From: Halorubrum sp. 2020YC2
Lineage (GTDB): Archaea > Halobacteriota > Halobacteria > Halobacteriales > Haloferacaceae
Length of the DNA: 64,000 nucleotides
Reading direction: 5' to 3'
Assembly (NCBI RefSeq): GCF_018623055.1
Contig: NZ_CP076019.1
Coordinates: 1,054,001-1,118,000 of the forward strand
The notes below the pieces were generated by a model. The model saw only the letters and a list, made by a program, of their open reading frames with translations. It did no database searches and was not told the origin of the DNA. Positions 3,241-53,769 of the stretch are shown here, one piece after another. The translations under genes were made by a program, and so were the position numbers. Each line of letters begins with the position of its first letter. Within the stretch, counting starts at the first letter, position 1.

Positions 3241-3600
3241 CTTATAACGAACAACGCGGTGGCGCGTGCCGACGAGCGCCGCACCGCGGCGCGAGTCGCA
3301 CGCGCGAGGTCGCCGGCGGCGAAGCCGCCGGCTGCCAGAGAATCTTCGATTCTCGCTGGAGTCGGCCGACCGAAGCGGAGGGAGGCCGACGAGGCTGGGG
3401 AGGTGTGAGGTGCGTCGCTGTGCGGGGCGGAGTGGGACTCAAAGGGGCAGCCGCGAGGCGGGCGCAGGCGAAGTAAGGACCACAACGAGGGAGCGAACGA
3501 AGTGAGCGACCGAGTGAGGACCGCAGCGAGCGTGCGCCCGCCTTGCGGCTGGGGCTTTGAAGATGTTTACCACCGATCCACCGGGACCCGTTTATAAACG
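3241..3600 (+). repeat. Structured intergenic repeat, copy A (putative ncRNA)
   Basis: Fills most of the gap between the kinase and msrB. From 5' to 3': TATA-like CTTATAAC (3241-3248); a 23-bp head (3256-3278) identical to copy B; a nested double hairpin (3309-3357) absent from copies B and C; hairpin P1 with arms GTCGGCC/GGCCGAC (3361-3367/3384-3390); conserved core around GGGGAGGTGTGAGGTGCG; then CAAAG-GGG followed by a 19-bp stem P2 (3448-3466 with 3533-3551) and GGG-CTTTG; tail ending at TTTATAAA (3591-3598). Small ORFs on both strands here are not shared in frame by the other copies and are treated as spurious. RNA gene or mobile repeat is undecided. Confidence 0.75.
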
Positions 3601-3740
3601 AGCGACTGGAGCTTTGGAGGAACTCACCGCCGAGTTACTGACAACGATTTATAAGCGAACGGCTGGAGATTCGGAAGTCTTCGTTGCGTCGTCGTTCGCT
3701 TACATATCGCAGATAGCGGTGCCCGAAATCGATTTATAAA
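3552..3740 (+). repeat. Degenerate about 57-bp tandem tail units with TTTATAA boxes
   Basis: The tail of copy A is repeated in diverged form: GGGGCTTTGAAG (about 3551), GGAGCTTTGGAGG (about 3608) and GGAGATTCGGAAG (about 3665) are spaced about 57 bp apart, and each is followed by a TTTATAA box (3591, 3648, 3733). A similar second tail unit follows copy B at about 49428-49463. No coding gene is supported up to msrB. Confidence 0.6.
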
Positions 3741-49143: not shown

Positions 49144-49437
49144 GATTTATATCTGCGGTGGCGCGTGCCGACGAGCGGCCGCAGGGCGCGAGTCGCACGC
49201 GCGAGGGAGTCGGCCGGCCGGAGCGAAGCGGAGGCCGGCCGACGAGGCTGGGGAGGCGTGAGGTGCGGTTGCGGTGCTGTGCGGGGTGGGACTCAAAGGG
49301 GCAGCCGCGAGGACAGCGCAGACGACGTAAGCACCGCAGCGAGCAGCGCGAGCGAGGAGCGCAACGAGTGTGCGCCGTCCTCGCGGGTGGGGCTTTGGAG
49401 GTGTCTGCTGTCGATCGGCGGCCAGTCAATTATAAAT
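49144..49437 (+). repeat. Structured intergenic repeat, copy B (putative ncRNA)
   Basis: Follows ilvD by 23 bp. TATA-like TTTATATC (49146-49153), the 23-bp head identical to copy A (49155-49177), P1 arms GTCGGCCGGCC/GGCCGGCCGAC (49209-49219/49233-49243), the conserved core, GTGGGACTCAAAGGGG, P2 arms 49302-49320/49371-49389 (two mismatches), GGGGCTTTGGAGGTGT and AATTATAAAT (49428-49437). A degenerate second tail unit follows to about 49463; 49464-49527 shows nothing recognisable. Confidence 0.75.
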
Positions 49438-50911: not shown

Positions 50912-51210
50912 TATTTATAAAAGATCGACAACTCGACGGCGAACACCTCCAAAGCCCCAGTCGCGAGGACGGCGCACGCTTGCTGCGCGCTTCAGTCGCT
51001 CACTTCGTTCGCTCCCTCCAGTGCTTACGTCGCCTGCGCCGTCCTCGCGACTGCCCCTTTGAGTCCCACCCGCACCGCAACCGCGCCTCATACCTCCCCA
51101 ACCTCGTCAGTCGCCTCCGCTTCGCTCCGGCGACTGACTCCCTCGCACGCGCTCCTCGCGGCCTGCCGGCCGCTCGGAGGCGCGCGCCGACCGCATCAGC
51201 CGTTTAAATA
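50912..51210 (-). repeat. Structured intergenic repeat, copy C (putative ncRNA)
   Basis: Same element on the minus strand: TATA-like TATTTAAAC (51210-51202), diverged head GCGGTCGGCGCGCG, P1 arms GTCAGTCGCC/GGCGACTGAC (plus-strand 51106-51115/51129-51138), conserved TTGGGGAGGTATGAGG, GTGGGACTCAAAGGGG, P2 with a perfect 19-bp stem (plus-strand 50958-50976/51035-51053), GGGGCTTTGGAGGTGT and TTTATAAA at 50912-50923. Fills the gap between the NYN gene and the signal peptidase gene. Confidence 0.75.
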
Positions 51211-52141: not shown

Positions 52142-53769
52142 ATGGAGGTCATACGAACCATTCCGGTCAAACTCTCGGTTCCAGACGATCGTGAGGAAGA
52201 CCTTCATCAGACCATCGAGCAGTTCAACCGCGGCTGTAACTACACCGTCCAGAACGGAAGGAACGACGACGGCTACCTCATCCTCAACAAGTCCACAATA
52301 CACGACAAAGTGTACCACGACTTGCGAGACGAAACAGACCTCCCCGCGAACCTTTGCGTTCGCGCCTACTCCAAAGCCGTCGAAGCGATGAAGTCCACGG
52401 TCGCAGACTGGAAGAAGGGGAACAGCCGGCCACTTCCACGGTTCAACGAGCCGTCAGCCGTCTACGACAAACGGACGCTGACTATCAAGGACAGGTCGGC
52501 CACCCTCTCCACTATCTTTCTTCGAGGAGAGAATCCCGCCGTTCACGGCGGGCGTGAATCCGACATCGCCTCCACAACCTACGTTCAGCAACAATACGGA
52601 TATTTAACTAATAGTGTATCGTAGCATGACGTACACCGAGGCGGTCACACCGCCCACTCAAATGCACAATATCGGGACTCCGAGGCCCAGAACGTTCGAG
52701 ACACACTCTCGAACCGCTGTGGTGTCTCGGTCAAGATAACTCCGAGTCCCCTGCCGGGATAGGAGTAACGGCGGTGTGGCCCCGCCATCGGCCTGTCATG
52801 CCGACAGGCCGTGAACCAGCAAATATCCCAACCCAGCGGTGTAGTGCCGTGGGAAGCCTCGCCGTTTACGGCGAGGAGGAGGTCACCAACGGTCGGGTTG
52901 CCGTGGACTACGTTCTCGGAGACTACCAAAAGTCCTACCTCGATGATGACGACTACGAGAAGCGGATGGGAACGCTCCACTACCGCGAAGACGAGGATGC
53001 GTTTTACCTCCACGTCGTCATCAAAAAAGAGGTCGAAGAACGAGATGGTGACAAGGTTCTGGGCGTGGATTTGAACCTCAAGAACGTCGCTGTGACCAGC
53101 ACAGGGTCGTTCTACGATGGTGGCGAACTACTGTGGGGGCAGAACCACCACTTCCGCGTGCGTCGTAGCCTTCAGCACAAAGGCACTCGCTCCGCCAAGC
53201 AGGTACTCCGGCGACTGTCGGGGCGAGAAAATCGCTTCGTGCTGAATCGCCTGCACACCATTTCTCGACGTATCGTGGAGGAAGCAGACAGTCACGACTG
53301 TTCGTACATCGCCGTCGAACGCTTGACTCACATCCGCGAGCGGATGGACAACCCGAACGACCAAGTGAAGCGCCAGATGCACAACTGGGCGTTCCGCGAA
53401 CTCCAGGAAATGCTTGCGTATAAGGCCAGTGAGTACGGGATTCGCGTTGAGCAGATACCGCCTGCGTTTACGAGTCAAACTTGCTCGAAGTGTGGGCATC
53501 AGTCCAGTACGAACCGCGATAGCAAGACTGGGTGGTTCGAGTGTAACGACTGTGGGTACTCGGTTGACGGCGACTACAACGCCTCAAAAAACATCGGTTT
53601 GAAACTTCTAACTTTACCGGAGGGCAAACGTCCCTCTGGGTTGGGCGACGGTCATCTCGCCCTCAAGTCCGGGATGCTGAACGGGAACGGCAATTACACT
53701 GCCTACGACATTTCGTCGTCAGACCGGGAGTCCACGGACAAACCCACGACTTCAGTCGTGGGTCGATGA
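52142..53769 (+). pseudogene. tnpB: tnpB of an IS200/IS605 (IS1341-type) element, split by a 374-bp insertion
   Basis: Removing 52513-52886 restores one frame of 417 codons, the usual TnpB length. N-terminal part MEVIRTIPVKLSVPDDREEDL to ATLST; C-terminal part NGRVAVDYVLGDYQ onward with RuvC residues in VLGVDLNLKNVAV (Asp), YIAVERL (Glu) and DGDYNASKNIG (Asp), and a zinc finger CSKCG...CNDCG. TnpB is an RNA-guided nuclease; no tnpA is present. The C-terminal half keeps all catalytic residues but lacks the N-terminal RNA-binding part. The hairpin CCCACGACTTCAGTCGTGGG (53743-53762) at the 3' end is the expected omega-RNA end. Confidence 0.9.
52513..52886 (+). mobile_element. 374-bp non-autonomous IS605-like element inside tnpB
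   Basis: Bounded on the left by target CTCTCCAC and ending GGTCAC on the right, without target duplication, as in IS200/IS605 transposition. Contains no sizeable gene. Dense in inverted repeats: CCCGCCGTTCACGGCGGG (52535-52552), GGCGGT-CAC-ACCGCC (about 52640), GGGACTC pairing with GAGTCCC about 70 bp later, TTCGAGA/TCTCGAA, GGCCTGTC-ATGCC-GACAGGCC (about 52790-52811) and CCTCGCCGTTTACGGCGAGG (52857-52876). The last hairpin and end match right ends of haloarchaeal tnpB elements, so this may be an orphan omega-RNA cassette. Confidence 0.75.

Follow-up and report, generated by a model that had tools for sequence, protein, structure and literature searches.

A structured intergenic repeat of haloarchaea whose hairpin stems change in sequence while their pairing is kept

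We analysed a stretch of 64,000 nucleotides from the genome of Halorubrum sp. 2020YC2 (the window) and observed that it holds three copies of one repeat, the hairpin arms of which change between copies yet stay complementary. Therefore, evolution appears to preserve the folded shape. Selection on the pairing is the likeliest reading of this pattern and not the only one, since gene conversion or palindrome correction can also yield compensatory pairs. By analogy, the repeat is best read as a probable haloarchaeal counterpart of the REP/BIME-type structured intergenic repeats of bacteria, and it has likely spread as a non-autonomous element.

Copies in the window and the architecture of the element

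The three copies, A, B and C, were located with a class-wide covariance model built from 21 sequences, namely copy C and sequences of other genera, with A and B left out. The model gave eight matches in the window; C, B and A were found at E 2.2e-14 or better and the next match at E 0.3. The score of copy C is partly by construction, because this copy is among the 21 sequences of the model. The features are as follows.

About 50914-51210: copy C, whole element
50914-50919: copy C, TTTATA box read from the sequence, 36 nt upstream (on the plus strand) of the P2 closing helix
50948-51073, minus strand: copy C, P2 module (99.1 bits, E 2.8e-18 with the class-wide covariance model)
50950-50954, minus strand: copy C, P2 closing helix CAAAG, with its partner CTTTG at 51057-51061
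50955-50957 and 51054-51056: copy C, internal loop CCC/CCC (GGG/GGG on the minus strand) between closing helix and stem
50958-50976, minus strand: copy C, P2 arm of 19 bp, with its partner at 51035-51053
51106-51138, minus strand: copy C, P1 hairpin with 10-bp arms GTCAGTCGCC/GGCGACTGAC
51145-51187, minus strand: copy C, P3 hairpin GCACGCGC..GCGCGCGC and an inner stem, the inner pairs of which covary significantly
51203-51209: copy C, TTTAAAT box outside P3, at the right end
49209-49243, plus strand: copy B, P1 hairpin GTCGGCCGGCC..GGCCGGCCGAC
49282-49399, plus strand: copy B, P2 module (86.9 bits, E 7.1e-16 with the same model)
49302-49320 and 49371-49389, plus strand: copy B, P2 arms, 17 of 19 positions paired
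3361-3390, plus strand: copy A, P1 hairpin GTCGGCC..GGCCGAC
3428-3561, plus strand: copy A, P2 module (79.4 bits, E 2.2e-14 with the same model)
3448-3466 and 3533-3551, plus strand: copy A, P2 arms
3602-3636, plus strand: copy A, additional partial tail unit (57-bp type) adjoining P2

The preliminary description of these hairpins had quoted the span 50958-51053, which is correct for P2 of copy C and covers only this part of the longer element. It had given copy C a full P2, and we observed Watson-Crick pairs at all 19 positions; the 19 pairs with one wobble ascribed to copy A are 18 Watson-Crick pairs and one G-U on the plus strand (A-C if the other strand folds). The wording that each P2 arm is matched by its own partner arm fits A and C. 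It is too strong for copy B, because only 17 of its 19 positions pair (the mismatches are G-G and A-C on the plus strand, C-C and G-U on the minus strand). The P1 arms of all three copies were found as quoted, with their own complements, and so were the closing CAAAG/CTTTG of P2 and its internal loop, which is GGG/GGG or, read on the opposite strand, CCC/CCC.

The neighbours of copy C, an NYN-domain gene on one side and a weak match to signal peptidase on the other, have their 3' ends turned towards each other. An IS1341-type tnpB is located ∼1 kb away (52142-52624 and 52849-53769 of the window, plus strand). It looks broken, because its sequence is divided between two open frames; the second of them matches Cas12f1-like_TNB and OrfB_IS605.

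From alignments of 30 own-genome copies and of 177 copies from own and related genomes, the Halorubrum element is about 270 bp long and has three hairpins. On the C-rich strand, at least one tail unit bearing a TTTATAAA-like box is followed by P2, the conserved linker AGTCCCACCC .. ACCTCACGCCTCCCCAGCCTC, P1, P3 and another box of this kind. The ends of the element are not inverted repeats of each other in the alignment of the 30 own copies. The P2 collar on the G-rich strand is nearly fixed (GGGACTSAAAG, GGG, stem, GGG, CTTTS), and the letters of the stem vary freely among copies and genera with complementarity kept. A right TATA-like box is present at most 60 nt away in 115 of 155 copies, compared to 9 of 154 in a control stretch, and mostly stands 6-8 nt outside P3. 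The left box was found within 60 nt in 118 of 196 copies (72 of the 196 have it exactly 37 nt before CAAAG); 78 have none in those 60 nt.

The number of extra tail units varies from 0 to 5 per copy. Among the 166 units counted, 120 are of 57 bp, 23 of 54 bp and 17 of 51 bp; 57-bp units from one locus agree at 89%, those from different loci at 68%. The three types differ in the middle of the unit and are near-identical within a locus (for example L200, L187 and L259), like recent tandem duplications. As the lengths step by three, coding repeats were considered and rejected: each frame is interrupted by stops in many of the 120 57-bp units, in no frame in fewer than 33.

Some copies contain nested double palindromes (stem, short spacer such as GGCAGC, stem), either within the copy or in place of P3. 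These were found in L277 (at site C, the genomic position of copy C), in own copies within L006 and L013, and in the class-wide loci L343 and L358. Their arms vary yet pair well, and they are perhaps a second structured module. A P2 loop subfamily was also seen (L344, L346, L347, L350 and L351), where an inner GGTCGCTCAGCGACATATCC..GGATAGGGGCCGCTGA-like structure replaces the GTAAGCAC loop.

Covariation and the folding strand

Copy C folded with z of -5.4 on the minus strand and -6.1 on the plus strand, and none of 200 shuffles was as stable. The motif collected 228 copies, 100 from the own genome and 128 from related ones, and 196 were used, 32 being without the 5' anchor. At the first 11 P2 positions of these 196 copies, 2042 of 2156 cells were Watson-Crick, compared to 1776 +/- 10 (maximum 1809) when the 3' arms were swapped among copies.

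We tested covariation against a tree null with a purpose-written script modelled on R-scape rather than with R-scape itself. For the 177 of 228 copies that passed a stricter extraction, a FastTree phylogeny and 20 null alignments were made, in which substitutions were moved between columns on the same branches. Twenty of 34191 column pairs reached E 0.05 or better: the P2 and P3 diagonals account for 11 of them and P1 for one, and the other eight are off the helices, linking columns that differ between structural classes. As P1 comprises several classes that cannot be aligned with one another, the tree null gives no clean result for it.

Class-wide, 28 of 30 loci yielded 33 P2 modules. With one module per locus, and 21 distinct 5' arms, the best register gave 9.75 of 10 Watson-Crick pairs, as compared to 6.01 +/- 0.31 when shuffled. 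The 24 loci with compact loops, minus four near-duplicates, gave 20 sequences, to which copy C was added. In these 21 sequences from many genera, 98.9% of 357 cells are paired and 12 of 17 pairs have changed on both sides; the covariation score is 0.642, against 0.122 +/- 0.022 for shuffled and at most 0.101 for slid arms. The conservation of the collar in these sets is partly by construction, because the search pattern fixed the collar letters; the stem was not selected for. The preliminary description had taken varied sequence with kept pairing as the mark of selected structure. This is supported both by the class-wide covariation and by the tree null, in which covariation rises above the phylogenetic background on P2 and P3; selection is the likeliest, though not the sole, reading of it.

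Covariation by itself cannot separate RNA from DNA structure, and folding energies do not discriminate the strands, because both are far below shuffles. The G-rich strand was more stable in all 133 full copies, a result that base composition alone may give. Among the non-Watson-Crick pairs, counted in distinct contexts on the C-rich strand, A-C exceeded G-T by 37 to 21 in P2 and by 37 to 16 in P3 (pooled, 74 to 37, p 6e-4), and such A-C mismatches correspond to G-U on the G-rich strand. The lean is absent in P1 (9 to 12). These counts suggest that it is the G-rich strand that folds, although the sequences share ancestry and part of the lean may stem from mutation.

Distribution, genomic setting and orthologous sites

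An exact 17-base motif of the repeat gave 104 matches in the 3.06-Mb own genome, 55 forward and 49 reverse. The region from about 1.4 to 2.0 Mb is copy-poor (7 of 100 places in 0.6 Mb); elsewhere the density is 4-13 per 0.2 Mb, the short last bin excepted. In a family draw of 148 genomes, this Halorubrum form was present in all 30 genomes of the genus, own included, and in none of the 118 of other genera. The exact motif occurs in at least 120 stretches of named genomes, and the 80 listed are Halorubrum or 'uncultured archaeon A07HR67'. BLAST with copy C at 1e-20 gave matches in 23 of 39 genomes, all Halorubrum.

A sister form came to light through matches on plasmids of Halobaculum, Halorussus and archaeon DL31; its outer pair is exchanged, CGAAAG/CTTTCAG standing for CCAAAG/CTTTGAG. 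Of 194 class-wide genomes, 105 contain its 14-mer CCCCTTTCAGTCCC, and they represent 42 of 65 genera, with up to 67 matches per genome, whereas a reversed control pattern was found in three genomes, with one match each. With strict filters and at most 24 scored candidates per genome, the covariance model at 1e-5 had matches in 17 genomes out of a phylum-wide draw of 148, and these all belong to the same order. By these searches, the repeat family looks haloarchaeal. Carriage by viruses was considered and rejected for both forms: phages gave no match, and the single viral contig with the Halorubrum motif looked like coding sequence; for the sister form, 66 viral stretches contained the 14-mer, but the GAAAGCCC half lay at most 230 nt away in none of them.

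Genes were called with a purpose-written codon-usage gene finder, checked against the gene layout of the window only. By these calls, all 100 own copies examined (of 104) lie between predicted genes. Convergent genes flank 39 of the 100, compared to 55 of 316 copy-free neighbouring pairs (p 1.7e-5), and divergent genes flank 14, compared to 32 of 67 copy-free gaps of at least 150 bp (p 2.8e-6). Among tandem genes the direction of the element was 29 to 18, which is not significant (p 0.14). The 128 copies of related genomes divide into 53 convergent, 38 tandem, 19 divergent and 18 of undetermined setting. In other genera, P2 modules often occur as head-to-head pairs (L343, L358-L360, L364 and L366; G180, G184 and G188). 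On a Halobaculum plasmid (L334, 2436-2960) two elements stand head to head, with P2-linker-P1-P3 followed by an apparent mirror order.

The element was present in 45 and absent in 8 of 53 orthologous comparisons, a proportion that is biased because the loci of relatives were mostly picked for a nearby copy. One empty site has flanks 93-96% identical. No clear signature of a target-site duplication around the TATA-like boxes was seen in the eight empty sites, which are too diverged to show one, and none of the copies is young enough to reveal it. Of the 13 closest loci at site C, counting the own one, 11 contain the element by profile, some of them only in part; L278 retains a readable remnant, whereas no trace could be read in L282. 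Seven orthologous copies at site C are 0.75-0.95 identical, so that most resemble each other no more than paralogs do, for which 300 random pairs gave a median of 0.85. The P2 and P1 stems at this site differ between orthologs as matched pairs. These observations suggest that copies have undergone gene conversion with one another, that compensatory change is fast, or both.

Readings of the repeat and its relation to known elements

BOX elements of Streptococcus pneumoniae are modular repeats with a tandemly variable module and stable folds; the modular likeness is by description, the variable module here being the 57-, 54- or 51-bp tail unit. IS200/IS605 and IS1341 elements have subterminal hairpins that are recognised as single strands, and an omega-RNA. 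The likeness, again by description, lies in the hairpins and in the tnpB near copy C, but neither tnpA nor tnpB was found as a constant neighbour of the repeat. Integron attC sites have a hypervariable but paired stem between fixed boxes, as here, whereas the present repeat is dispersed singly among unrelated genes and not in cassette arrays. MITEs carry terminal inverted repeats and target-site duplications; in the own-copy alignment the ends of the present repeat are not inverted repeats, and its eight empty sites have diverged too far to reveal a duplication.

The closest likeness is to REP/BIME, which PMC3733652 describes as many intergenic hairpins with fixed letters at the hairpin base, inverted pairs and lineage-specific versions. 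The present repeat likewise is a palindromic hairpin in many intergenic copies with inverted unit pairs, and its head-to-head P2 modules fit BIME-like DNA units better than two divergent RNAs. It differs in being archaeal, in its collar (GGGACTSAAAG/CTTTS), in a much freer stem and, in Halorubrum, in its length and three hairpins. The same paper gives REP hairpins a GTAG or CGTC tetranucleotide at the base. Our alignments contain no such fixed tag, the collar being CTTTGAG/CTTTCAG with CCC loops, and therefore we do not call the repeat a member of REP.

We propose, with about an even chance of being right, that this is a high-copy, non-coding interspersed hairpin repeat of Halobacteria that acts like REP/BIME. 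It would be a small non-autonomous element whose hairpin folds as single-stranded DNA or RNA. A putative protein would recognise the folded hairpin through the collar, so that pairing is selected and the letters of the stem are free; copies would survive where intergenic space downstream of genes (3') tolerates them, and stem variants would be passed on as matched pairs by gene conversion from copy to copy. The observed covariation, copy number, dispersal, taxonomic distribution, intergenic sites, patchiness, head-to-head pairs, strand lean and the differing stems of the orthologs at site C all argue for this proposal. Against it, the one candidate mover examined, the Y1 transposase family, is not supported, no target-site duplication was seen, and P1 has no strand lean; also, head-to-head pairs fit badly with strand-specific selection, because each strand then carries both hairpin senses. 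A more specific version, in which a haloarchaeal enzyme moves the collar-read, free-lettered hairpin as single-stranded DNA and the repeat is an independently arisen archaeal REP/BIME with its own mover, is offered tentatively and is rather doubtful. A genuine REP/BIME with a Y1-family REP-associated tyrosine transposase (RAYT) as its mover is very improbable, even though the fixed-collar hairpin, the head-to-head pairs and the intergenic dispersal fit it and the own genome has Y1 transposases (at one of three, a copy lies about 1.1 kb off). Neither a GTAG nor a CGTC tag was recognised, none of 21 Y1 loci from 12 genomes is flanked by the repeats or has a P2-type motif nearby, and three of these 12 motif-bearing genomes had no Y1 match. 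Neither locus proximity nor co-occurrence thus supports an IS200-type Y1 transposase as the mover.

The strong, RNA-like covariation would also suit a multi-copy structured RNA or an mRNA 3'-end element, in which RNA made from the G-rich or the C-rich strand folds and protects, processes or ends intergenic transcripts. The enrichment between convergent genes with avoidance of divergent regions, the TATA-like boxes that flank the Halorubrum element at preferred distances, and the mismatch lean of P2 and P3 could be explained in the same way. However, the element shows no preferred orientation relative to tandem neighbours, both strands fold about equally far below shuffles, presence at orthologous sites is patchy, and the head-to-head pairs of other genera leave no space for divergent promoters; we regard this explanation as possible but somewhat unlikely. 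DNA processes alone could also keep the arms complementary, by quasipalindrome correction (template switching) and ectopic gene conversion, with no selection on structure. One-sided intermediates are few (2 of 357 cells in the class-wide set), one orthologous site swaps stems as whole pairs, and perfect palindromes are nested within copies, all as expected from such processes. Yet the GGG/GGG loop stays mismatched between two perfect helices where correction should have made it complementary, an argument weakened by a search pattern that partly fixed the collar; conserved collar, linker and loop motifs and the mismatch strand lean also speak against DNA processes alone, which we consider unlikely.

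An Rfam scan of the window gave no match at the gathering score. We found no description of the repeat in the open-licence literature searched, which includes PMC5018182, PMC5217627, PMC13107129, PMC3733652, PMC3404096 and PMC6490895. As far as this literature goes, a repeat that occurs in tens to over a hundred copies per genome, and whose hairpins covary very cleanly, has no name. It lets one test whether Archaea have REP-like replicators of their own and a protein that reads a hairpin by its shape, and the natural variants of its stem are a ready-made compensatory-mutation experiment.
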